Assembly (NCBI GenBank): GCA_903922465.1
Contig: CAIXTV010000247.1
Span: 1 to 41,686, forward strand
DNA length: 41,686 nucleotides
Direction of reading: 5' to 3'
Source: an uncultured bacterium
Lineage (GTDB): Bacteria; Bacteroidota; Bacteroidia; Bacteroidales; CAIXTV01
The notes beneath the pieces are model-generated. The model made no database searches. It saw nothing but the letters and a program-made list of their open reading frames with translations, and was not told the origin of the DNA. This document shows positions 26,831 through 41,359 of the stretch, in pieces. The position numbers and the translations under genes are program-made. Position 1 is the stretch's first letter. Each line of letters begins with the position of its first letter.

Positions 26831-27070
26831 GCGACGAAGATTTCCTGAATAGCGACGCCCTCCACGAACTGAGCGACGTCCTCCACAAACTGAGCGACGT
26901 CCTCCACGAACTGAGCGACGTCCTCCACGAACTGAGCGACGTCCTCCACAAACTGAGCGACGTCCTCCACAAACTGAGCGACGTCCTCCACAAACTGAGC
27001 GACGTCCTCCACGAACTGAGCGACGTCCTCCACAAACTGAGCGACGTCCTCCACGAGCTGAGCGACGAGA
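26831..27070. repeat. 21-bp tandem array with GACGTC core (ten near-identical units plus degenerate ends)
   Basis: Units start every 21 bases from 26831 to 27062, beginning GCGACGTCCTCCAC and ending CTGA, differing mainly by a G/A at one position (CACGAACTGA or CACAAACTGA). The first unit is strongly diverged and the last is truncated. Each full inner unit contains the palindrome GACGTC. The array fills most of the 26613-27206 gap and is GC-rich against AT-rich flanks. Open frames on the minus strand (84 and 116 codons) read seven-residue repeats, VAQFVED or WRTSLSL, and are by-products of the period. The rest of the gap (26613-26830 and 27071-27206) shows no gene I can support. Confidence 0.95.
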
Positions 27071-27206: not shown

Positions 27207-27959
27207 CTATGGCTTTTTTCCGATAAAATCAAGTATTCCATTAATAAACGTTAATGGATGAGGGGGATTTCCGGGGATATATAGGTCGATTGGATGCTTT
27301 TCGATGAAACTTCTATCTAAAGCTTTACTATTTTGGAAGACACCTCCGCTTATCGCATCAGTTCCACATAAAATAATCACCTTAGGGGAAGGAATATCGC
27401 TAAAGCAGGTTTCTAATGGCTGTGCCATATTCTCAGTAATAGGGCCTGTAATCAAAACAGCATCAGCATGTCGGGGTGATGCAACAAATTCAAATCCAAA
27501 ACGCCCCGAATCAAACTGTACATTGCCAGAAGCATTTAATTCAAGTTCGGCACTGTTGTCTCCACCAGCCGAAACTTGTCTGATTTTAAATGATTGCTTG
27601 AAAAATCGCTCAATTTCAGGTCTTCTTTTCTCTTTATTTACGATTAGAGCTTTGTTTTCCCCCGCTCTGATGATTAAAGCTTCTCTTTCATTCACCGCCA
27701 GATGATAATCTTTAGTAAATTGTATTTTATCAGGCGAATGAAAAGCACATGCACCACAAAAATTGCACTTTCCCAAATCAATTTGAAAGGGATTTACTGA
27801 AATGGCAGCTGTAGGGCATAGCTCAACCAAAGCAACTTCATCGCAATTCTTAGTCGATATTACTGGACGCCCTTTAAATATGCCCGGAACTTCAACATTG
27901 CGAACATCTTTAATGAATTGACTGCCTTGATGGAGTCTTATTTTTATCTCTTTAAGCAT
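27207..27959 (-). CDS. Ferredoxin-fused NuoB/HyfI-like small subunit without N2/proximal cluster ligands
   Basis: A 250-residue fusion. Residues about 30-85 are ferredoxin-like: Cys65-x2-Cys68-x2-Cys71 plus the Cys48-Pro of the first half can build one [4Fe-4S] cluster, while the second cluster is lost (first half keeps only Cys39; the last CP reads Ser75-Pro). Residues about 125-250 match the small subunit of group 4 hydrogenases (FVASPRHADAVLITGPITENM, DAISGGVF, YIPGNPPHP). All four expected proximal-cluster cysteines are replaced: Asp134 and Ala137 (GGDNSAE for the usual GxCNGCE), Asp201, and Asn231. It therefore cannot carry the normal cluster. Last gene of the six-gene complex operon, three bases after the large-subunit gene. 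Confidence 0.88.
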   Translation of the reverse strand: MLKEIKIRLHQGSQFIKDVRNVEVPGIFKGRPVISTKNCDEVALVELCPTAAISVNPFQIDLGKCNFCGACAFHSPDKIQFTKDYHLAVNEREALIIRAGENKALIVNKEKRRPEIERFFKQSFKIRQVSAGGDNSAELELNASGNVQFDSGRFGFEFVASPRHADAVLITGPITENMAQPLETCFSDIPSPKVIILCGTDAISGGVFQNSKALDRSFIEKHPIDLYIPGNPPHPLTFINGILDFIGKKP

Positions 27960-27962
27960 TTT

Positions 27963-29456
27963 CTAAAGATCAAAGCCACAATAGGACAAGTTAAAACTCT
28001 TATTAATAATGGGGAAATCGGATATTTCATTATTCCGAACAGCTAATGCCAGTGCAAGCCAGTTATGCAAGGACGGGTCTTTAATTTTATAGGCAATAAG
28101 ATTCCCTTTTTCATCGGTAATAGCGCAATGACAAATCTCACCTCTCCATCCTTCAGTTAAACTGATGCAAAAAGTGGACGGCTTTGGAGTTGCATGACTT
28201 GCATCCTTTATTTCAATATCAGGAATGTTTTCTAACCAATGTTTAATGTATGAAACCGATTGGATGATCTCTTCATTTCGCAATTGAGTGCGAGAATAAA
28301 CATCCCCATGTTTTTTTGTAATTGGCTGATGGGGTGTTTCTTTAAATAAGCCATAAGGATGAGAGGCTCTAACATCTCTTTCCAGCCCTGCAGCACGTGC
28401 AGACATACCGACAGCGCCAATTTCAATCATTTGATTTCTACTTACTACACCCGTTTTCTCCAATCGCGAGAGCAAACTAGGTAAAGTTTTCATTCTATCC
28501 CAAATTTCATTGAAATCAGGTTCATATTTACTGAAGATATCTAATAATCTTTCCTTTAATTCGGGAGTAAAAGCATAAAAACTATTAAATGGGCGAATCA
28601 AACTCTTGCCTAAACGGTTACCACACCATTCTTGCATGAAATTAACCATAGGAGTACGCAATCGCCCAAGGACAGCATTGCCCAATTGGTAAGCTACATC
28701 AGTACAAATGGCTGCCATATCACCCGTATGCATGGCAATACGTTCAATTTCGACTGAGAGGTTACGTTGCCATAAGAGATGTTGTGATGTTTGAACATCA
28801 CAAAGGCTTTCCCATAAGTTTGCAAAGGCAGAAGCATGTGCAGTTGCTGTATCACCGGCGATACTTTCCGATAAAGCGATACGTTGATTTAAATGAGTAC
28901 TGTTTAGGAACAAGTTTTCAATGCCCCTATGCTGATAACCCAATTGAATTTCAAGGTGAAGTATACGTTCGCCATTGCAAATAAAACGAAAGTGCCCCGG
29001 CTCGATGATGCCTGCATGAATAGGCCCCACACCTACTTCGTGAAGCTCTTCACTTTCTATCTTGAAGAAAGGATAATCTGAAATTTGATGCTCATTTGCT
29101 CGATTCTTTGCATATCGTAAAGGTTTAAGCCAGGGATGACCAATAAAGGTAATGCCATAATTCTCATAAATCTCTCTTTCAAACACAATAATTGAAGGAA
29201 TTTGAGTAGAAAGGGAGGGAACGCTTGCAAAGGATGTCGATTTCCACGATAAAACCTTCAATTTCGATTCTCTATCATCGGCAAGACTGCATATAAGATG
29301 AAGTTCATTCCCAATAGGGTAGGCAAAGTAGTTTACACAATGCACTTCTTCTTCCTCAAATAAACTAATCACAGTATCGAAGAAATCCTTATAGCTAACT
29401 ACAGGAATCATTTCGATAGGAATGCTTTGTAGATTATGTACAGTTGTATATTTCAT
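27963..29456 (-). CDS. hyfG: HyfG/NuoCD-like large subunit lacking NiFe-site cysteines
   Basis: A 497-residue fusion of an NuoC-like N-terminal domain (to about residue 115) and an NuoD/hydrogenase large-subunit domain. Family marks include GVGPIHAGIIEPGHFRF, HLEIQLGYQHRGIE and the C-terminal DFPIINKSFNLSY. The nickel-iron ligands are missing. The N-terminal CGIC is Ala200-Gly201-Asp202-Thr203 (SESIAGDTATAH). In the C-terminal motif the DPCxxC cysteines fall on Ser491 and Gly494; a nearby Cys493 is out of register. It therefore cannot be a hydrogenase of known type. This matches the published idea of energy-converting-hydrogenase-related (Ehr) complexes, which link group 4 hydrogenases to complex I. 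It sits after the membrane-subunit genes, seven bases from the upstream stop. Confidence 0.9.
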   Translation of the reverse strand: MKYTTVHNLQSIPIEMIPVVSYKDFFDTVISLFEEEEVHCVNYFAYPIGNELHLICSLADDRESKLKVLSWKSTSFASVPSLSTQIPSIIVFEREIYENYGITFIGHPWLKPLRYAKNRANEHQISDYPFFKIESEELHEVGVGPIHAGIIEPGHFRFICNGERILHLEIQLGYQHRGIENLFLNSTHLNQRIALSESIAGDTATAHASAFANLWESLCDVQTSQHLLWQRNLSVEIERIAMHTGDMAAICTDVAYQLGNAVLGRLRTPMVNFMQEWCGNRLGKSLIRPFNSFYAFTPELKERLLDIFSKYEPDFNEIWDRMKTLPSLLSRLEKTGVVSRNQMIEIGAVGMSARAAGLERDVRASHPYGLFKETPHQPITKKHGDVYSRTQLRNEEIIQSVSYIKHWLENIPDIEIKDASHATPKPSTFCISLTEGWRGEICHCAITDEKGNLIAYKIKDPSLHNWLALALAVRNNEISDFPIINKSFNLSYCGFDL

Positions 29457-29462
29457 TGAGTA

Positions 29463-30878
29463 TTAGATAAAGCAATTTTGAATGAATTGGACAAAAGCTT
29501 GAGGAGGGAAATACCCCAGCCAAATGCTTGCTAATAGCAACAATATAATCGGAAGTATCTGCAAAAAAACAACATTACTTTTCTCTTCAACAGCATGGTC
29601 ATCCTTTGAAAATATCATATTCAAAGCGTTACGAGTAAAAGAGAAGATAATAAAGGTAAGCAGAATAAACAGCACAATCATTTCCCAATGATGACCAGCA
29701 ACAAAAAGGCTTTTAAAGATTAAAAATTCACTCACAAACAGGCCTGAAGGAGGAACAGCTCCAAGAAACAACAACAACATCAATAGAACAAATGCAGAAA
29801 CAGGGTGTTTCCCAAAGTAATCTTTAATTCCACTCATCTTATAGGTTTGAAAATGGTTGAAAACAGCACCTAAGTGGAAGAAAAAGCCCGATTTCAACAA
29901 CGAATGCAAAATCAGATGCAGGAAAACAGCATAATATGCGGTTCCGCCTATTGATAGTCCAATGGCAACAATTCCAATGTGTTCTAATCCAGAGAAAGCT
30001 CCAAGACGTTTAAGGTTTCCGACAAACAACATATAAACAGCTGCAATCAAAACGCTGAATAAGCCTGACCACATAAGAATAGAACTCATCCAAACCCCTA
30101 TATCAGCAAAGGAAAAGGCATGAAAGAAGCGAAACAGAGCAATAAAACCTGCATTCATCAGGGCAACTGATATAAAAGCCCCTACAGGAGAAGGTGCAAC
30201 AGTTAAAGCATCCACTTTAATGGTCTGCAAAGGGAATAAACCCAACTTTGTACTGAAGCCAACCAGGATAAAAAGAAAAGACATTTTGAGCCAAAAAGGG
30301 CTCATGGCAGCAGCCTGAGTGGCAATAGAAGTAAAGGTAAGGTCGTAGGTGCCATGTTGTTCCACCGCAATCCCTAAGAACAATATTCCAACAAAAGCAA
30401 GTGCTACACCAATTGAACAAATAAAGACATACTTCCAGGTAGCTTCTAAGCTTAATGCATGGCGCTCGTGATAGATTAATAAAGACACGCAAAGCGTGGT
30501 AGCTTCCACTAAAACCCATAATAAACCTGCATGCTGGGCGAGATAAACACCCGAAACAGAAACAATAAGCATCATAAGGGCGCTAATATATAAGGCAACA
30601 CGCAAACCATTATCGCGGTTTCGTTTTAAATATATCAAACTATAAAAAACAGTATAGTAAGACAATAGAGTGAGCACACTGAGGAATAAAATAGCAGTAT
30701 TATCAAATAAAAAGTATTCCAATTCGCTTTCTCCCTGATGAATAATTGCATATATATTCATCAGGGTTTGAACTATAAGAAAAACATAGATGATAATGCG
30801 TGACAAAAGTTTATTTCGCAATAATAAAGTAATGGCCGATAGCGCAATTCCCAAAACAAAATACAAGCTTAGCATCAT
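29463..30878 (-). CDS. hyfF: HyfF/NuoN-like antiporter-type membrane subunit
   Basis: A 471-residue protein with about 13-14 membrane segments, related to the Mrp antiporter/NuoL-M-N family. Conserved charged residues expected for ion translocation are visible, including Glu in LLWVLVEATTL and Lys in FSTKLGLFPLQTIKVDA, followed by PSPVGAF and the HLILHSLLKSGFFF helix. In complex I and group 4 hydrogenases such subunits pump protons or sodium. It is the fourth gene of the operon, two bases after the HyfE-like gene. It is one of two antiporter-type subunits here; E. coli Hyf has three (B, D and F), and no HyfD is present. Confidence 0.9.
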   Translation of the reverse strand: MMLSLYFVLGIALSAITLLLRNKLLSRIIIYVFLIVQTLMNIYAIIHQGESELEYFLFDNTAILFLSVLTLLSYYTVFYSLIYLKRNRDNGLRVALYISALMMLIVSVSGVYLAQHAGLLWVLVEATTLCVSLLIYHERHALSLEATWKYVFICSIGVALAFVGILFLGIAVEQHGTYDLTFTSIATQAAAMSPFWLKMSFLFILVGFSTKLGLFPLQTIKVDALTVAPSPVGAFISVALMNAGFIALFRFFHAFSFADIGVWMSSILMWSGLFSVLIAAVYMLFVGNLKRLGAFSGLEHIGIVAIGLSIGGTAYYAVFLHLILHSLLKSGFFFHLGAVFNHFQTYKMSGIKDYFGKHPVSAFVLLMLLLFLGAVPPSGLFVSEFLIFKSLFVAGHHWEMIVLFILLTFIIFSFTRNALNMIFSKDDHAVEEKSNVVFLQILPIILLLLASIWLGYFPPQAFVQFIQNCFI

Positions 30879-30880
30879 AA

Positions 30881-31510
30881 TTAGTCTTTTAAGTTAGATA
30901 AATTATCGATACTCATCTCTTCAAAGGTATTACCTATCTTGTTAAGGAATAGTCCCAACACCAACACACTAACAAAGATATCGAGCAGTATTCCAAGATT
31001 CACCAATATGGGTTGATGTGCTCCTATGGTGAGGGAAAGCAGAAAGACGCCGTTCTCTAATATCATATATCCCATCATATGGGTGATGATTTTCTTTCGA
31101 GTTATTATAATATAGATGCCTGTAAACAGGGAAGCAAAAGCTACCGTAAATTCGGGTTTTGAATCCTTAGGTAATTCGAGTGAACCTGAAATAATAAAGG
31201 ACATAATAATGAATCCTGTGATGATAATTAACGACCAGAAGTAAGAAACAAAGGGTTCAGTTTCACGAATGATCTTATTCTTCTTAATTATGTAAGAAAG
31301 GAACCAAGGTATCGCTATTGACTTGAAGATTATGGTTTCCAGTAGGATGACAGCTAAGTTAATCCAGTTAATTTCTGTGAGTTTCAAAAAAGTTATACCA
31401 AATAACAGCACTCCTTGTAGGGTAAGCATACGGATGAAGGTGTTCAGGCGGTTTGATATCCCGATAAACAGCAGGGTGAAGGAAAATATGGTGAGCAGTA
31501 TGGTTTCCAT
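30881..31510 (-). CDS. hyfE: HyfE-like membrane subunit (NuoK-related)
   Basis: A 209-residue hydrophobic protein with about six membrane segments, matching the length and position of HyfE in hydrogenase-4-type operons. Its second half contains the NuoK-like helix MMGYMILENGVFLLSL with a buried Glu, a residue linked to proton transfer in complex I. It is separated by one base from the HyfC-like gene and by two from the HyfF-like gene. The start ATG at 31510 follows the upstream stop directly, so translation is probably coupled. Confidence 0.88.
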   Translation of the reverse strand: METILLTIFSFTLLFIGISNRLNTFIRMLTLQGVLLFGITFLKLTEINWINLAVILLETIIFKSIAIPWFLSYIIKKNKIIRETEPFVSYFWSLIIITGFIIMSFIISGSLELPKDSKPEFTVAFASLFTGIYIIITRKKIITHMMGYMILENGVFLLSLTIGAHQPILVNLGILLDIFVSVLVLGLFLNKIGNTFEEMSIDNLSNLKD

Positions 31511-31511
31511 G

Positions 31512-32408
31512 CTATTTATCTAAGTATAAAAGTATCCCTACAAATATGAGAAAGGCTAAAGAAGTGAGTGACATTATGAATTGAGGATTGTGATTCATGC
31601 GGAAACGAGCCATAAAGGATTCTAAAAAGGCAACAACAAATGCATATACCATTTGAATGCCAATAAAAGCGAGAAGTGCAACCCATTGTGGAACATCAAA
31701 TAAGAAGAAGTTTGCAATTATGGTTCCGAAAAGAGCAAATTTAAGCGCATTGGTTAAATGAAGCAAGCCTAAATCGAAACCACTATTATCTAAAATCATT
31801 ACTTCGTGCACCATAGTGAGTTCAAGATGTGTGCGGGGATCATCAACAGGCAGGCGGCAGGTCTCGATTAGTGAAAACATGAAGATAAGAAAAGCCGAAA
31901 TGATGCCAATGCCATAAGAAAAGCCATACCCACTGCGCATGGCAATGAAAATTTCGCTAAAAGAATAGTGTCCTGTGAATAAAACCAAAGCTCCGAACAG
32001 AACAAGGAAGGCAGGCTCGGCGAACATTGAAAAATGTGCTTCACGACTGGCGCCCATGCCTTCGAAACTACTGCCGGTGTCCATAGCAGCAATAATTGCC
32101 ATGAATCTACCTAATCCCAACACATAAATAAAGAAAATAAAATCACCATTAAAGGAAAACACAGCCTGCCAAGGTCCAATAGGCAAAACCATTGCTGCAC
32201 TTATCACTGCAGCAAATGAAATTGCGGGAGCTATCCTAAATATTATGGTAGTTGTTTTGCTATATACACTCCCTTTACGAAACAATCGAATCATATCTTT
32301 CAGGGGTTGCAACATGCCAGGTCCTTTTCGTCCACTCATAAGGCTTCTGATGACATTTATCAGGCCAGGGAAAAGCAATGAAGTGAGGATTATGATGAGT
32401 ATCGTCAT
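31512..32408 (-). CDS. hyfC: HyfC/NuoH-like membrane subunit
   Basis: A 298-residue protein with about eight membrane segments, the NuoH-family subunit that connects the soluble module to the antiporter-like arm. The conserved cytoplasmic loop is present: GSSFEGMGASREAHFS and RLPVDDPRTHLELTMVHEVMILDNSG, which in complex I shapes the quinone channel and in hydrogenases contacts the proximal cluster subunit. Retention of these acidic residues, despite loss of the redox ligands in the soluble subunits, suggests that coupling to ion movement is still used. Spacing to neighbours is three bases upstream and one base downstream. Confidence 0.93.
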   Translation of the reverse strand: MTILIIILTSLLFPGLINVIRSLMSGRKGPGMLQPLKDMIRLFRKGSVYSKTTTIIFRIAPAISFAAVISAAMVLPIGPWQAVFSFNGDFIFFIYVLGLGRFMAIIAAMDTGSSFEGMGASREAHFSMFAEPAFLVLFGALVLFTGHYSFSEIFIAMRSGYGFSYGIGIISAFLIFMFSLIETCRLPVDDPRTHLELTMVHEVMILDNSGFDLGLLHLTNALKFALFGTIIANFFLFDVPQWVALLAFIGIQMVYAFVVAFLESFMARFRMNHNPQFIMSLTSLAFLIFVGILLYLDK

Positions 32409-32411
32409 TGT

Positions 32412-34448
32412 TTACCAGTTAAAGAATTCAATAATCAACATTATAATAATAAATAAAAAGCCATACATCAGATAACTTTGAGTTTGACCGTTCTGAAATA
32501 TTCTGAAACGCCCAAGGAATTTTATCAACTTAAGCATTGGTGCTGAAATAAGTTTATCTTCTATCCTATCAGTCGATTGACTTTCGTAGGAATAGGCTTT
32601 TTGAGGAAATGTTTCTTCAATTGATACTTTATCTTTCTTCATAAAAACCAAAGGATGAAATAGTTTTCGGAAGATACGTGCATAAGAACTTGCTGTATAC
32701 TGCATTTTAGGATTAGGAGCCACATAACCACAACCCCAAGTTTCACCTTGCTCAATCAACACTTTACGTTGAGCCATTTTCTTTAGCCCTAAAACTATTA
32801 TAATGATACCTATAAACGACCCAGAGGCGATAGATATACCCGTAAGGGTCTCAACCATGCCCGAATTGCCAACCAAAGCATCAACGTCTGGCATAAACAT
32901 TTGCAAGGGAATGATCATGGCTTTTATGATATAAGCAGGGAACAATCCAATGAAGATCATACATGCAGAAATGAAAAACATAGGTATTTTCTTTATCCAT
33001 CCTGCTTCTGTAGGCTCCTTTTTAAATTGATGACGGGGGCTACCCTGAAAGACAACCCCGTAAGCTTTTGTGAAACATAAAATAGCAAGTCCTCCAATGA
33101 GAGCTAATGCTGCAATAATCAGCACAAAGGAGAAGGATTGTGAAAGTCCAAGCGAATGAATGGCTTTGAAAAGACCAATAAATATGATGAACTCCGAAAT
33201 AAAACCATTCAATGGAGGCAAACCGCAAATTGCAATGGCACTGATTAGGAAAAACCCCGCTGTATAGGGTAGTTTCTTACCTAAACCTCCTAATCTCTCA
33301 ATATTAACTGTGCCTGTTGCCTGATAAACATTCCCTGCACTGAAAAACAATAGCGACTTAAACAAGCTATGGTTTAGAGTATGCAATAAGGCTCCAGCAA
33401 AACCCATCATGCTGAGCATTGGGTTTTCGTAACCAATACCTAAAACCCCCATCCCAATGCCTATGCCTATTATACCAATGTTCTCTATGCTGTGATAGGC
33501 AAGAAGCTTCTTAAGGTTGTGTTGAATAATGGCAAGCATCACACCATAAAGCCCAGATGCAACGGAAAATATCATGATAATCCAACCTATTACTATCATG
33601 TCGGCGGGATGTTGTAATACTACCCTGAGTATACCATATATCCCCAATTTAATAATTACTCCCGACATGATGCCAGAAACATGAGAAGGAGCTGCAGGAT
33701 GGGCATGAGGGAGCCAAGTGTGAAAAGGGATGAAACCCGATTTTATGCCAAAACCTATAAAGAATAACATGAAGACAATAAGCGAACTTTGTGCCCCTGC
33801 AATGTCAGGCAAAGCAGCAAGGCTGCTAAACGTAGTGCCTCCCGTTAGATGAAACAAATAAAAAGTGCCCATAAGCAGAAAAACTACACTAATGTGCATC
33901 TGAATAAAATAATTCATTGCAGCCTTGAGGGTTCCGTCTTTCTTTCGATCGAATAAAATGAGTAGAAAGGAAGTGAGCGACATCATTTCCCACACGACGA
34001 CAAATAGGAAAAGGTCGTTGATGAGGGTGGTATATATCATACTTGCCTGAAATATGGGAAGAACGGCATAATGCACCTTTAAATCCTGGCTTCTACCTAA
34101 GGAATGTTGGCTTTTAGCTATATGATTTAACTTATTAAAAGTCGGCAAATAATGCCCGAGATATTCCTGTCCATACAAACTCCCTGCTAGCGAAATGAGG
34201 TTAATGATAACAATAAACCAAGCACTTAAAGGGTCAATACTGAGTTGAAATTCGCCTAAGGACGTATAAATAAAGGAAGGTTCGACTGTAGAACCTAATA
34301 ATACAGTAATGGCAGGTATAAGTGAGAAAACGGCAATAATAAGCGATGAAATAAAAGACAACCAACCGGCCAAACGGGGTTTAAAAAAAGGCACGCACAA
34401 CAAAGCCACAGCCACACCAATCAAAGGGAAGAAAAGGGGATTTGTCAT
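32412..34448 (-). CDS. hyfB: HyfB-like antiporter-type membrane subunit
   Basis: A 678-residue protein of the NuoL/MrpA family with about 16 membrane segments and a C-terminal extension. Functional residues expected for ion pumping are seen: Glu in VVVWEMMSLTSF, Lys in IKSGFIPFHTWLPHAHPAAPS, the KLGIYGILRV helix, and a further Lys/His-rich helix (HTLNHSLFKSLLFFSAG). The C-terminus has GETWGCGYVAPNPKMQYTASSYARIF, typical of HyfB/EchA-type subunits. First gene of the six-gene operon hyfB-C-E-F-G plus the ferredoxin-fused small subunit. The start chosen, ATG at 34448, is directly before the first membrane segment. The upstream gap to 35273 has no other gene. Confidence 0.93.
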   Translation of the reverse strand: MTNPLFFPLIGVAVALLCVPFFKPRLAGWLSFISSLIIAVFSLIPAITVLLGSTVEPSFIYTSLGEFQLSIDPLSAWFIVIINLISLAGSLYGQEYLGHYLPTFNKLNHIAKSQHSLGRSQDLKVHYAVLPIFQASMIYTTLINDLFLFVVVWEMMSLTSFLLILFDRKKDGTLKAAMNYFIQMHISVVFLLMGTFYLFHLTGGTTFSSLAALPDIAGAQSSLIVFMLFFIGFGIKSGFIPFHTWLPHAHPAAPSHVSGIMSGVIIKLGIYGILRVVLQHPADMIVIGWIIMIFSVASGLYGVMLAIIQHNLKKLLAYHSIENIGIIGIGIGMGVLGIGYENPMLSMMGFAGALLHTLNHSLFKSLLFFSAGNVYQATGTVNIERLGGLGKKLPYTAGFFLISAIAICGLPPLNGFISEFIIFIGLFKAIHSLGLSQSFSFVLIIAALALIGGLAILCFTKAYGVVFQGSPRHQFKKEPTEAGWIKKIPMFFISACMIFIGLFPAYIIKAMIIPLQMFMPDVDALVGNSGMVETLTGISIASGSFIGIIIIVLGLKKMAQRKVLIEQGETWGCGYVAPNPKMQYTASSYARIFRKLFHPLVFMKKDKVSIEETFPQKAYSYESQSTDRIEDKLISAPMLKLIKFLGRFRIFQNGQTQSYLMYGFLFIIIMLIIEFFNW

Positions 34449-35272: not shown

Positions 35273-38200
35273 ATGAAAAAGCTTTTTGCCATTTTAACAA
35301 TCATTTTCTTTGCTTCATTGCTACCAATTAAAGCACAAGACCGACCTGCAAAGCCCAAAACTATAATAACTGGGAAATTCATCGGCCTTAGCAAACCCTT
35401 AAAAGACGCTCCTGCTATGTCTAAAGAAGAGTACATGTTGATGCAGGCAAAAGCCAAAAAAAGAGGCAAAAACACTCCTTTTGATTTACCTAAATACCCA
35501 TATGCATCTAAAGCATTACCTAAAGGGAATGATGCCGCATGGCAAAACCTCAATGGGAATAAGTCTCTTGTAAGTTTAGCCCCAATACAAAACTACGAAG
35601 GTCAGTCTTCACCTTACTATCCACCTGATTGTAATGGCACTGCAGGCCCTAATCATTATATGCAAACCGTAAACAGCACCTATGCCATATATAGTAAAAC
35701 AGGCACTCTACTTGTAGGACCTACTGCAATGAACACCCTTTTTGGCAACGTAACTGGTGCTAATGTTAACGATGGTGACCCAATCATCCTGTATGATGAA
35801 CAAGCTGCAAGGTTTGTTGCAGTTGAGTTCTCTGTTAGTGGGACAAACGATTATATGTTAATCGCTGTTTCAACTAGCAACGACCCAACAGGCACATGGT
35901 ATCAATATTCTTTTGATGTTGTTGATATGCCCGACTATGAAAAGATGGCTGTTTGGCGCGATGGATATTATATGGGAACTAACACTCAACCATCTACTGG
36001 TAGTGACATTTATGTTTTCGAACGTTCCCAAATGCTCAGTGGAGGCATCGCACGCATGGTTGCTTTTGACAACCCCTACCGTCCCGGCACAGGAGTTGTA
36101 GTTGTTCCACCCGTTGACAATGATGGCCCTGCTGCTCCAGTGGGTACACCAGGCACTTTTATTGCTTTTAATGACGACGCTGTAGGTGGAGGCGCTGATG
36201 AACTTTGGCTTTACGAACTTGCTGTCGATTGGACAACTCCGGCTAACTCTAGCTTTAACAGAACACAACAAATAGCTGTTACCCCTTTCGATAGTCAATT
36301 CTCTAACGGATGGGACAACCTATCTCAACCAGGCACCTCTATGAAGCTGTGCGCAATTTCTACCGTAATCATGAATGTACCTCAATATAGGAATTTCGGA
36401 ACTTACCAATCAATTGTTTGCTGTCATACAGTGGATGTTGACAACACTGACCATGCTGGAGTGCGTTGGTATGAACTCAGGAAAACGCCCCCTTCTACCA
36501 CATGGACCTTACGTCAACAGGGGACCTATGCTCCTGACGCTCATTCACGATGGATGGGAAGTGTTGCAATGAATGGCTCAGGGAAGATTGCTGTTGGATA
36601 CTCACTTTCAAGCAGCACAGAATATCCGGGGATACGTTATGCCGGACAATCATCTGCCGCCTATCAAAACGCATCAGGAGTGCTTGATGTTCCTGAAGTT
36701 ACAGCTGTTGCTGGAGCCAACTTCCAATACACTTACAACCGTTGGGGTGATTATTCGAGCATGTCAGTTGACCCATCTGATGATCAAACATTTTGGTTCA
36801 CTACTGAATATATAGGCACTTCAGAAGCAAGAAAAACTAAAATCATCTCCTTTAAGATAGGCAACAATCCTGTGGTTACCACTTTAGCTGCCTCAGCAAT
36901 TAGCACTACATCAGCTACAATAAACGGAAGTGTTAACCCTAACGGCTTAGCAACTACCTATTATTTCGAATGGGGAACAACAACTTTATACGGAAACACA
37001 ACAACTTCCATTTCAGCTGGAGCGGGTAGTTCAAATATTAATGTTAGTGAGAACCTCAGTGGATTAACCCCAAATCAAACCTATCATTTTCGTTTAGTGG
37101 CTGTCAATAGTGATGGCACCTCAAATGGCATTGACCTCAGCTTTATAGCCGGGGGAGCAAGCTTAACTACAACCGCCGCATCTTCCATTTCCTTAATATC
37201 AGCTGCATCGGGAGGCAATATAACCTCTGACGGAGGAAGTGCAATAACAGCCCGTGGCGTTTGCTGGTCGACCTCGGCCAATCCTACTATTTCAGGGAGT
37301 TATACAAGCAATGGCAGTGGCACGGGAGTATTTAGCAGCGCAATAAGTGGATTATTACAAAACACCACCTATCACATCAGAGCATATGCCACGAATAGTT
37401 CAGGAACGTATTATGGTAATGATGTTCAGTTTACAACACTATGCGGGGTCTACACCTTACCTTTTACTGAAAGTTTCAACAATTCGACCCTCCCTAATTG
37501 CTGGTCACAAATAGATAATCAAGGAGGGGGACAAATATGGCAGTTTGGCACCATAACTGGTCAAGCGCCTAATCCTTTGCTAAGTGGGAACTATGCATAT
37601 TTAAATAGTGATGCTTATGGGTCTGGTTTTTCGCAAAACGCCGACCTTATCACCCCAACATTAGACTTATCAGGTTATACCAATATTACCTTGGCTTTTA
37701 ATCATTACTTCAAATCATACGCGGGTTCTTCAGGAGCACTTTATTATAGCATCAATAATGGCTCGACATGGACAAGCCTAGCCTCTTTCACTGCTACTTC
37801 GGCCACCAACCCTATTGCTTTTAGTCAATTAATTACCTCAGTAGCCGGGCAATCGCAAGTGAAATTTAAATGGAATTACACCGGAGCATGGGGTTATTAT
37901 TGGGGCATAGATGATATCTCAATTACCAGTGCCTGCACTTTACCTCTTGCTGCCGGCACAATTACAGGCCCGGCCACCGCCTGTCAGAGTGCAACTGCAG
38001 TTGCTTATTCTATTCCCACAATTACCAATGCCACAACATACACCTGGGCATATTCGGGAAGTGGTGCTACGATAACAGGCACATCAAACAATATAACAAT
38101 TTCATTCGATGCCAATGCAACATCAGGCAACCTCAACGTGAAAGGCCACAATGCTTGTGGTGATGGAATTATCTCGGCTAATTATGCAATAACAATTAAT

Positions 38201-41200
38201 CCTCTACCTGTGGCAGCTGGAACCATAAGTGGTGCGGCTTCTGTATGTCAGGGGGCCACTTCAGTTGCCTATTCGGTGGGTGCAATTAGCAATGCAACGT
38301 CCTATGTTTGGTCATATTCAGGCACAGGCGCAACCATAAGCGGAAGCGGCAACAACATTAGCATAACATTTGCCTCAAATGCAACCCTGGGCAACCTCAG
38401 CGTTATTGGTCATAACACTTGTGGCGATGGAGTGGCTTCTGTTTTACCCATCAGCATAAACTACTTACCTGCAAGTGCAGCAGGCGCTATCGCAGGGAAC
38501 AACACCGTTTGCCAAGGGCAAAGCATTGTCGCTTATGCTGTTCCTGCCATTACTTATGCCACAACTTATGTATGGACCTTACCCAATGGAGCATCAGGAG
38601 CAAGCGCCACAGATAGTATTATTGTGAATTATGGCTATGCAGCCACCTCGGGAAACATCAGCGTGAAGGGTCATAATGCTTGTGGAGATGGGGCTATCTC
38701 AAATTTGGCCATAGTGGTAAACGCTATGCCATCGGCTCCTCTAGCCGGAACAATCACTCAACCAACATGTTCATCAGCAACAGCTAGTTTGGTTTTAAAC
38801 GGTTTGCCTGCATCGGGTAGCTGGATGTTGGTGAGAAGTCCGGGAGGAATCATCACCAATGGAACCGGGACAAGCGCAAGCATTACAGGTCTTGCAAGCG
38901 GAACTTACACCTACACAGTCACCAATGCATTGGGGTGCATTTCATTAGCATCATCCAATATCATCATAAATATTCAGCCTTCACCGCCTATAGCACCCTC
39001 GGGAAGTGCTGCTCAGTCGTTTTGCTCGGCCATTATGCCAAGAGTTGCGAACTTAACAGCTTCGGGGGCAGGCATTCAATGGTATAGTGCATCGAGCGGA
39101 GGAAGTGCTTTAGCGAGCACAACAGCCTTATCGAATGGCAGTCATTATTTTGCAAGTCAAACCATTAGTGGATGTGAAAGCACTGCACGACTGGATGTTG
39201 CCGCGACCATCAACCCCACCCCTTCTGCTCCTTCAGGAGATGCAGCCCAATCGTTTTGTTATGCCGCCACTGTAGCTAATCTGGTGGCTAGCGGAACCAA
39301 TATAAATTGGTATGATGCCGCCAATGGGGGCAATTTGCTTCTATCCAATACTCCTTTAATAAATGGAAACACCTATTATGCAAGTCAGAGCCTGAATGCC
39401 TGCGAAAGTCAAAGCAGGCTGGGAGTGGCAGTTACGATAAATCCTACCGTTGCCATAAATGCAGTAACTCAAGCCGTTTCTGGCATCAACCTAAATGGGG
39501 CAACGTTTAACGCTGAGCTCACTTCCACATGTCCAAACCCAACCATAGCAAGAGGTTTTGTGTATGCCAATCATGCCAATCCCAGCCTAAGCAATGCTTT
39601 AAGCACGGTGCTTAATGCGGGTAATGGCGTTGGGACTTACTCATCTGTTCTTACCACATTAAGTTCAAACACCGATTATTGGGTGAGGGCATTTGCCATT
39701 AATGCAACTGACACCGCTTACGGAGCCATATTAACTTTCAAAACAGGCATTTGGCCCTTCTTCAATCTTGAACTTAAGAACGATATACAAACCAATGATA
39801 GAACCTATGAGTTCGATATTATCCTCACGCATACAGGAAATTACGTAAACCCTGTTCAGTTTGAGTTATCAACCATACAAATGGGCATCTATTTTAACAG
39901 TGCCATCCTTAATGGAGGAACTGCCACGGCTACCGTGGTTCCAGGTTCAACCTCCGACTTTAATGTAATTCAGCAGCAAACCAATGCCAATTTATACATC
40001 ATTGGCCCTACAACCGGCAACAAAACCATCAAAATTACGGCCAAGACTGCAAGTTCTGGATTCGGTACCCTAATTTCAACCTCTACAGGAAGTCGTGTGA
40101 TGCGTGTGAGACTCACCAATACAGTAGCTTTCGCCCAACTAAAGCCCAACTTAAACTATTCGTTTACGGCAACCGGGCCTTCGTGGCAAACCATTGTTAA
40201 CGCCTACATAGCCACCATCAGCAAGAACATTAGTGCAAACGGCACTTTCATCGTTAACGGATTGCTTAACCCCACACTTAACCTTCAAAACTCTTATACT
40301 TTAAGCGGTGGAGGGGCCTATTGTGCTGGAAGTGGCACGCCTGTAAGCATTTCACTTGATGGTTCGCAAAGCGCTTTTAGCTATCAGTTGAAAAAAGATG
40401 GAATTAATTACGGTAGTGCGCTTGTTGGCACCGGAAATCCCCTAACATGGAACACCACTGATGCCGGCACCTACACCTGCGTTTGCGATACGCTAAACAT
40501 GAATGGAAGTGCGATAGTAACGATAAACAGCACCCCTACCCCAACGGCTGATGCCAATCAATCGTTCAATTATACCCCCACCATTGCCGATTTGACTGCT
40601 ATGGGAACGACAATTAAATGGTATGATGCCGCCACGGGAGGCAATCTACTTGCTTCGTCGTATACTATGCTAAACGGAAATACTTACTATGCCAGCCAAA
40701 CAATTGCAGGCTGCGAAAGTCAAAGCCGGGTAGCCGTAGCAGTGGCTATATCACTATATAAGATTATCAATTTGCATCTTTTCCTCGAAGGATTGTTCGA
40801 CAACAACACCCTTATCATGCACGAAGCCATGGATGGCAACACGGGTCAACCTTATTATGGCGATGGCATTGCCGATAAAATACAAGTCGACCTTTATAAT
40901 GAAAACACCCCCTTTGCACCTGCTGGAGTAAGTGTGAGTGGCATTGATTTAGCGACTAATGGTTTGGCAAGTTTCCAGATTTCCACCTCTCTTAATGGCA
41001 ACTATTACGTAAAAGTGAGCAACCGCAATCACTTGACCTATTGGTCGGCCATTGCTATACCTTTTAACACCTCAACTGTCAACTATTACTTTACGACCGA
41101 TATGCTACAGGCTTACGGAAGCGACCCTCAGGTGCAGGTTTCGCCCGGAATATTTGCCTTCTTTGTTGGCGACTTAGATCAGGGTGGATGGGTAGATGCC

Positions 41201-41359
41201 AACGATTTCAACATCTTTGAGTATGACTTAATTATGGGCACTGTCGGATTTCTTCCTTCTGATTTAGATGGTAGCGGATGGGTTGATTCTGACGACTACA
41301 ACGTCTTGGAGCCTCGATTGATGTTTGGTGTATTTACCGAATATCCTGGTCTGTACTAA
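35273..41359 (+). CDS. Giant secreted modular protein with FN3/PKD/Ig-like repeats and dockerin-like C-terminus
   Basis: The 2028-residue protein starts with a signal peptide (MKKLFAILTIIFFASLLPIKAQ). Order of regions: a 500-residue N-terminal module (PPDCNGTAGPNHYMQTVN, many aromatic strands, probably a beta-propeller); two FN3-like domains (about 535-725); a MAM/jelly-roll domain (about 730-890, ending WGIDDISI); three PKD-like repeats with GHNACGDG (about 895-1145); Ig-like repeats with FCSA/FCYA and GCES/ACES cysteine motifs (about 1150-1430, and again about 1790-1870); an FN3-like domain and a cohesin-like domain (LELKNDIQTNDRTYEFD). The C-terminus has two EF-hand-like repeats, DLDQGGWVDANDF and DLDGSGWVDSDDY, as in type I dockerins, and lacks the usual T9SS type A sorting pattern. 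It is probably a surface adhesin or scaffold; the ligand is unknown. It stands alone on the plus strand. Confidence 0.9.
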   Translation: MKKLFAILTIIFFASLLPIKAQDRPAKPKTIITGKFIGLSKPLKDAPAMSKEEYMLMQAKAKKRGKNTPFDLPKYPYASKALPKGNDAAWQNLNGNKSLVSLAPIQNYEGQSSPYYPPDCNGTAGPNHYMQTVNSTYAIYSKTGTLLVGPTAMNTLFGNVTGANVNDGDPIILYDEQAARFVAVEFSVSGTNDYMLIAVSTSNDPTGTWYQYSFDVVDMPDYEKMAVWRDGYYMGTNTQPSTGSDIYVFERSQMLSGGIARMVAFDNPYRPGTGVVVVPPVDNDGPAAPVGTPGTFIAFNDDAVGGGADELWLYELAVDWTTPANSSFNRTQQIAVTPFDSQFSNGWDNLSQPGTSMKLCAISTVIMNVPQYRNFGTYQSIVCCHTVDVDNTDHAGVRWYELRKTPPSTTWTLRQQGTYAPDAHSRWMGSVAMNGSGKIAVGYSLSSSTEYPGIRYAGQSSAAYQNASGVLDVPEVTAVAGANFQYTYNRWGDYSSMSVDPSDDQTFWFTTEYIGTSEARKTKIISFKIGNNPVVTTLAASAISTTSATINGSVNPNGLATTYYFEWGTTTLYGNTTTSISAGAGSSNINVSENLSGLTPNQTYHFRLVAVNSDGTSNGIDLSFIAGGASLTTTAASSISLISAASGGNITSDGGSAITARGVCWSTSANPTISGSYTSNGSGTGVFSSAISGLLQNTTYHIRAYATNSSGTYYGNDVQFTTLCGVYTLPFTESFNNSTLPNCWSQIDNQGGGQIWQFGTITGQAPNPLLSGNYAYLNSDAYGSGFSQNADLITPTLDLSGYTNITLAFNHYFKSYAGSSGALYYSINNGSTWTSLASFTATSATNPIAFSQLITSVAGQSQVKFKWNYTGAWGYYWGIDDISITSACTLPLAAGTITGPATACQSATAVAYSIPTITNATTYTWAYSGSGATITGTSNNITISFDANATSGNLNVKGHNACGDGIISANYAITINPLPVAAGTISGAASVCQGATSVAYSVGAISNATSYVWSYSGTGATISGSGNNISITFASNATLGNLSVIGHNTCGDGVASVLPISINYLPASAAGAIAGNNTVCQGQSIVAYAVPAITYATTYVWTLPNGASGASATDSIIVNYGYAATSGNISVKGHNACGDGAISNLAIVVNAMPSAPLAGTITQPTCSSATASLVLNGLPASGSWMLVRSPGGIITNGTGTSASITGLASGTYTYTVTNALGCISLASSNIIINIQPSPPIAPSGSAAQSFCSAIMPRVANLTASGAGIQWYSASSGGSALASTTALSNGSHYFASQTISGCESTARLDVAATINPTPSAPSGDAAQSFCYAATVANLVASGTNINWYDAANGGNLLLSNTPLINGNTYYASQSLNACESQSRLGVAVTINPTVAINAVTQAVSGINLNGATFNAELTSTCPNPTIARGFVYANHANPSLSNALSTVLNAGNGVGTYSSVLTTLSSNTDYWVRAFAINATDTAYGAILTFKTGIWPFFNLELKNDIQTNDRTYEFDIILTHTGNYVNPVQFELSTIQMGIYFNSAILNGGTATATVVPGSTSDFNVIQQQTNANLYIIGPTTGNKTIKITAKTASSGFGTLISTSTGSRVMRVRLTNTVAFAQLKPNLNYSFTATGPSWQTIVNAYIATISKNISANGTFIVNGLLNPTLNLQNSYTLSGGGAYCAGSGTPVSISLDGSQSAFSYQLKKDGINYGSALVGTGNPLTWNTTDAGTYTCVCDTLNMNGSAIVTINSTPTPTADANQSFNYTPTIADLTAMGTTIKWYDAATGGNLLASSYTMLNGNTYYASQTIAGCESQSRVAVAVAISLYKIINLHLFLEGLFDNNTLIMHEAMDGNTGQPYYGDGIADKIQVDLYNENTPFAPAGVSVSGIDLATNGLASFQISTSLNGNYYVKVSNRNHLTYWSAIAIPFNTSTVNYYFTTDMLQAYGSDPQVQVSPGIFAFFVGDLDQGGWVDANDFNIFEYDLIMGTVGFLPSDLDGSGWVDSDDYNVLEPRLMFGVFTEYPGLY

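Follow-up and report, generated by a model that had tools for sequence, protein, structure and literature searches.

Energy-converting hydrogenase related (Ehr) complexes resemble the group 4 [NiFe] hydrogenases but lack their CxxC motifs, and their function is unknown (PMC10284858, PMC10432482, PMC6349859). The member found in Geobacter is encoded by GSU0739-45 (PMC7894505). The sulfane sulfur reductase MBS of Pyrococcus is a further complex I superfamily member without a NiFe site, and its proximal cluster, which is held by three cysteines, is the proposed site of catalysis (PMC7684303). In DAB2, a NuoL-type subunit forms part of a complex that has no redox centres (PMC13144422). The open literature that we searched describes Ehr only as lacking the NiFe motifs, and no description of an Ehr complex that also lacks the proximal cluster, N2, was found in it; the papers defining Ehr fell outside the scope of this search, and such a variant may already have been noted.

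The window analysed here, a stretch of 41,686 nucleotides of DNA from an uncultured member of the Bacteroidales, carries six open reading frames on the minus strand at 27207-34448. All are intact and they are separated by 1-6 bases, which bears out the six tightly packed genes described in a first-pass annotation of this DNA. Read from 34448 to 27207 they encode HyfB-, HyfC-, HyfE-, HyfF- and HyfG-like proteins and then the small subunit. The first is a HyfB/NuoL-like antiporter-type membrane subunit (P0006, 678 aa, 32412..34448; PF00361), the best NCBIfam match of which is hydrogenase 4 subunit B (E 1.8e-148, under the equivalog cut-off). It is followed by a HyfC/HycD/NuoH-like membrane anchor (P0005, 298 aa, 31512..32408; PF00146, E 4.6e-34), a HyfE-like (NuoK-like) membrane subunit (P0004, 209 aa, 30881..31510; PF00420, and hydrogenase 4 membrane subunit in NCBIfam, E 2.2e-20) and a HyfF/NuoN-like antiporter-type membrane subunit (P0003, 471 aa, 29463..30878) that was assigned from its NCBIfam match to hydrogenase 4 subunit F (E 7.1e-65, under the cut-off). 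The two soluble subunits are an EhrL/HyfG/HycE-like large subunit (P0002, 497 aa, 27963..29456) composed of a 30 kDa and a 49 kDa domain (PF00346 and PF00329), and an EhrS-like small subunit (P0001, 250 aa, 27207..27959; PF01058, E 8.1e-17). By Pfam and NCBIfam each gene falls within the complex I/hydrogenase-4 superfamily, and none of the NCBIfam scores reaches its equivalog cut-off. A 21-bp tandem array (26851-27067, 10.3 copies, 95% match) lies between the gene for the small subunit and a RelA/SpoT-like gene; it opens long minus-strand frames in two registers and is probably not a gene. A repetitive, secreted-looking protein of 2028 aa is encoded at 35273-41359, divergently from the operon.

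The large subunit was aligned with HycE and MbhL using HMMER and with HyfG using MAFFT. At the first NiFe-binding CxxC site it has A200 G201 D202 T203 (codons at 28848..28859, minus strand), and at the second it has S491 and G494, within the sequence FNLSYCGFDL at residues 488-497 (27966..27995, minus strand). In the MAFFT alignment, FLSDRVCGICGFAHSV ... SLDPCYSCTDR of HyfG is matched by ALSESIAGDTATAHAS ... SFNLSYCGFDL. The annotation had reported the loss of the NiFe cysteines (AGDT at 200-203, Ser491 and Gly494) and had taken the complex not to be a hydrogenase; its readings are exact, and the conclusion is supported, the two NiFe-binding CxxC motifs of group 4 [NiFe] hydrogenases both being absent. 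The closest PDB match of the large subunit is HycE (7z0s_E, E 6e-35), and the protein clusters with Ehr sequences, those of Geobacter included, and not with HyfG/HycE. As in the Geobacter complex (GSU0739-0745), the operon encodes HyfB, HyfC, HyfE, HyfF, large and ferredoxin-fused small subunits, including the antiporter-like and NuoH-like membrane subunits that characterise Ehr, and GDT/S and NKSFNLSYCGxDL motifs replace the NiFe cysteines. The complex is therefore a Bacteroidota type of Ehr, a family within the complex I superfamily, and the missing NiFe site is expected from this membership.

A search of the whole host genome, which is a fragmented assembly of 312 contigs, found neither a NiFe large subunit nor HypD (PF01924), the latter being detected in control genomes. 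Thus the hydrogenase maturation genes that had been noted as missing nearby are, as far as HypD is concerned, missing genome-wide. Five matches to FeFe hydrogenases are present, and other homologues in this genome (L060, L063) resemble operons of the complex I type.

Geobacter-type Ehr retains the four cysteines that bind N2 in the small subunit, and N2 is present in all sampled Ehr outside the N2-less lineages described below. In contrast, the four N2 columns of the small subunit encoded here, which in HyfI fall within GGCNACE, GACGVGGG and PGCPP, contain D134, A137, D201 and N231. The codons of Asp134, Asp201 and Asn231, which correspond to ligand positions 1, 3 and 4, lie at 27558..27560, 27357..27359 and 27267..27269, respectively, on the minus strand. 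The motifs that flank these columns align without gaps with HycG and MbhJ, and no intact cysteine was found at any ligand column, confirming the earlier claim that all four proximal-cluster ligands are lost. An AlphaFold2 model of the protein (pLDDT 93.7) has HycG (rmsd 1.1 Å) and MbhJ as its nearest solved folds, and N2-less and N2-bearing types alike have an invariant Arg127, Arg153, Pro162-Arg163-His164 and Asp166.

The small subunit is not free of clusters, since the N-terminal ferredoxin domain that is fused to its NuoB/HycG-like domain retains one [4Fe-4S] site (C48, C65, C68 and C71), a feature absent from the first-pass annotation. These residues align with cysteines 4, 5, 6 and 7 of NuoI/HyfH, which ligate N6b, the cluster adjoining N2 in complex I. 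About half of the Ehr outside the N2-less lineages have two ferredoxin clusters, whereas there is one here. No second set of four invariant cysteines that could house a relocated cluster was found in the soluble subunits; relocation of the cluster was rejected, as the large-subunit cysteine columns 160, 442, 251 and 40 either vary or occur in N2-bearing Ehr.

With E. coli Hyf/Hyc the complex shares the subunit set and the fold, but the NiFe site, N2, a HyfD gene in the operon and HypD in the genome are all absent, and the ferredoxin domain is fused to the small subunit. Like complex I it has homologues of NuoB, NuoCD, NuoH, NuoK and NuoL/N with the key antiporter Glu/Lys residues; unlike complex I it lacks N2, has Gly201 at the column of the NuoD quinone-site tyrosine, and has no NuoEFG in the operon. 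It resembles MBS in having no NiFe site, but the MbsJ-type proximal-cluster cysteines are missing here and, by analogy, MBS-like catalysis at the proximal cluster would be open to N2-bearing Ehr and not to the N2-less type. Mrp antiporters contain a NuoL-type ion path and no redox centre. The complex has an ion path of this type in common with Mrp and DAB2, but it retains a full hydrogenase-like arm, and neither MrpF (PF04066) nor DabA (PF10070) was found in the host genome. Coupling to CO2 hydration through DabA was rejected because the DabA gene is absent from this genome. The possibility that the complex replaces Mrp was likewise rejected, since in 99 genomes Mrp and Ehr occur together 6 times, against about 5.7 expected, and so show no association.

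Examination of 99 genomes of the same order identified large-subunit orthologues in 26 further genomes, with 48-60% identity and open frames. Most of these keep the same operon, some on short contigs; in L048 and L053 the operon genes are not all together. Counted over 295 same-order genomes, the system is carried by 66, about a fifth of those sampled. A collection-wide scan gave at least 575 relatives, and the best 80 of these are spread over Bacteroidota, Geobacter and other Thermodesulfobacteriota, Verrucomicrobiota, Planctomycetota, Melainabacteria, Ignavibacteriota, Spirochaetota, Omnitrophota and Myxococcota. At the NiFe sites the relatives have GDT/S and a C-terminal NKSFNLSYCGxDL-type motif, GDA and ADT being among the rare variants.

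Small subunits were surveyed as 183 distinct sequences, 181 of which could be scored at all four N2 positions. All four cysteines are present in 78 sequences from many phyla and the set is lost in 103, of which all but L056 belong to a single Bacteroidota clade of 102, these row counts representing non-independent events and many of the genomes being metagenome assemblies. The pattern is all-or-none, with zero intermediates among the 181, though a cysteine at position 137 alone often persists. Position 137 is Ala in the window protein and Cys in 76/103 N2-less relatives, and hence only three of the four ligand replacements are clade-wide.

A tree was built from the large and small subunits after removal of the four ligand columns. 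It unites the N2-less sequences other than L056 in the Bacteroidota clade (bootstrap 96, SH-aLRT 84), the sister of which is an N2-bearing Bacteroidota sequence (L188) inside a 100/100 group. The remaining sequence, L056, belongs to a separate lineage and forms a 100/100 group with N2-bearing L178 and L179, indicating that its loss of N2 is independent. A larger tree based solely on the large subunit recovers the same main clade (SH-aLRT 100) and two changes, with L056 on a long branch. On these trees, the N2 set disappeared on two separate occasions, one of them in the Bacteroidota clade. At the base of the main clade, L090 has both ferredoxin cluster motifs and no N2, and therefore N2 was probably lost first and the outer ferredoxin cluster later. 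The small subunit of L056 lacks the ferredoxin domain as well, and a progressive loss of clusters is visible. The overall interpretation offered by the first-pass annotation thus holds in that the N2 loss is real and goes beyond what is usual for Ehr, but the locus is not an isolated oddity, the state being clade-wide. We regard N2-less Ehr as a variant of the family for which we have found no previous description in the open literature searched.

The contig of L092 is labelled Phycisphaerae and its sequence falls within the Bacteroidota N2-less clade, through either misbinning or transfer. One assembly, genome G708, has yielded an Ehr operon with N2 and also a small subunit without it (L277 and L278); coexistence of the two types is not certain there, given contamination of 4%. 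The opposite pattern, with N2 kept and the ferredoxin cysteines lost, is seen in L134 and L141 (Omnitrophota). A tandem pair of HyfB-like genes is found in L031-L036, L042 and L184-L186, and the window has one such gene. Upstream of the N2-bearing operons from many phyla (L104, L108, L110, L113, L118, L119, L120, L123, L124, L125, L126, L135, L142 and L145) lies a common gene, the product of which begins with an excisionase-type helix-turn-helix; the N2-less loci are without it.

The residues at the former N2 positions are constrained. Their usual state is D-x-D-N, with an acid at 134 and an acid at 201 each in 102/103 N2-less sequences and Asn at 231 in 97/103; position 231 may also be Ala, as in Alistipes, or Ser, and the variants at 137 are Cys, Ala, Val, Gly, Asn, Thr, Ser and Tyr. 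Exactly two acids are found across the four positions in 102/103 sequences and three in L056, so that a check of replacement residues in relatives, as the annotation had proposed, finds two carboxylates in all 102 clade members. Only two rows lack an acid at 134 or 201, L084 (A-D-D-N) and L090 (D-D-H-S), and Asp137 is present in both of these and in no other row. The chance of Asp137 coinciding with both losses is about 2 in 10,000, ignoring kinship, and the swaps occur in Cytophagales and Saprospirales, lineages that are thinly sampled here. This two-acid rule was first seen on 53/53 main-clade rows; roughly half of the N2-less set was added to the survey afterwards, and every one of these sequences fits it. 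Such conservation suggests that the pocket was not simply left empty but has a specific replacement in the two carboxylates. Their net charge of -2 equals that of an oxidised [4Fe-4S] cluster bound by four cysteinates.

The membrane Glu/Lys residues, which were said to be retained, are confirmed to be so, and the ion machinery is under constraint. In the HyfB-like subunit, the ion-path residues E154, K236, K267, K364 and E419 are invariant in 41/41 N2-less relatives, as are E125, K211, K329 and E384 of the HyfF-like subunit in 50/50 N2-less sequences; both sets align with the ion-path Glu/Lys of NuoL, NuoM and NuoN. The HyfC-like subunit of the window retains ion-path residues E131, D189, E196 and E202, and E131, E182, E196 and E202 are invariant in 42/42 N2-less sequences. 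The column of NuoH E216, which is Glu also in HyfC and HycD, is Arg192 here (codon 31833-31835); it is Lys or Arg in 40/42 N2-less sequences, and N2-bearing Ehr usually have Asn, Ala or Thr there. Arg192 adds an extra positive charge near the coupling region. In the closest N2-less pair, L078/L112, the small subunit has a dN/dS of 0.05 and the other five genes have values of 0.11-0.19, and a check for frameshift decay in same-order orthologues found none, the frames being open. By these measures the membrane module is under purifying selection. The large-subunit cavity residues of N2-less Ehr are conserved as much as those of N2-bearing Ehr, as would be expected if something still binds in the cavity.

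On the basis of these comparisons we propose that the complex is an Ehr with a cut electron path, which would work as an ion translocator gated rather than driven by electrons, a reading to which we give an even chance of being correct. In the related formate hydrogenlyase, relay distances are < 14 Å (PMC9474812), and with the bridging cluster gone electrons should not be able to reach the cavity from the ferredoxin cluster. The annotation had argued that N2 loss leaves no known redox endpoint, and this is supported, there being no known electron acceptor. No electrons would then pass from the soluble arm into the former active-site cavity, and with the path cut ions would move without a redox reaction there; we infer that movement would be coupled to a non-redox event. 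The two carboxylates may substitute structurally for the cluster, matching its -2 charge near Arg163 and His164, or may alternatively hold a divalent metal. The complex would behave as an ion valve or antiporter like those of the Mrp and DAB type, with no redox chemistry in the cavity driving the ions; the soluble arm would couple or gate their movement by conformation, and the retained [4Fe-4S] site might be a redox sensor. L056, which has neither N2 nor the ferredoxin domain, counts in favour of a cut electron path. Against the proposal count the conserved cavity, the null association with Mrp, and the ferredoxin ligands kept in 102/102 main-clade sequences, which indicate that some electron-related or structural role persists.

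These same ligands, C48, C65, C68 and C71, matching NuoI/HyfH cysteines 4-7, the ligands of N6b beside N2, would also fit a pump that is still redox-driven, in which the retained [4Fe-4S] site bypasses N2 and feeds an unknown substrate, cofactor or docked partner. The conserved cavity is consistent with this, as are the FeFe hydrogenase genes found in 23/27 Ehr genomes vs 44/72 others, which suggest that low-potential ferredoxin metabolism is present in carriers. However, judged from the fold, removal of N2 should widen the gap to the cavity, set against relays of < 14 Å (PMC9474812), no conserved partner gene that could be a candidate electron donor or acceptor adjoins the operon in N2-less loci, and the ferredoxin domain is missing altogether from L056; we consider a redox-driven pump possible but doubtful. 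Asp134 and Asp201, with Asn231 and often Cys137, might instead bind a mononuclear metal as a redox or hydrolytic centre. The conserved pair of carboxylates with its compensating swaps would suit such a site, but variation at 137 and 231 leaves few ligands for a redox metal, which makes this reading unlikely.

A recent 2026 paper concludes from the absent NiFe site that Geobacter Ehr has no function and experiences relaxed selection (PMC13194489), and the progressive cluster loss observed here could be taken to mean that the operon is a decaying Ehr relic. This is very improbable: the orthologues have open frames, dN/dS is 0.05-0.19, the ion-path residues are invariant over deep divergence, the two-acid rule holds, and 66/295 same-order genomes carry the operon. 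Decay was thus largely refuted, and since an entire branch of the family shares the change, it looks functional. Misalignment, assembly error or a chimeric contig might be suspected in an assembly of 312 contigs, but the same residues occur in about 100 other sequences and the flanking motifs align to HycG and MbhJ without gaps, so that we give an artefact next to no credence.

The conservation of the N2-less complexes argues against extending to them the view of Geobacter Ehr as non-functional and drifting (PMC13194489). How the redox event at N2 and in the cavity of complex I sets ions moving far away is a long-standing question. In Bacteroidota the redox event, including N2, has been removed twice, while the cavity and the ion path stay under selection. 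If the complex moves ions, as in the gated translocator that we propose, it would provide a ready-made system that separates conformational or electrostatic coupling from electron transfer.
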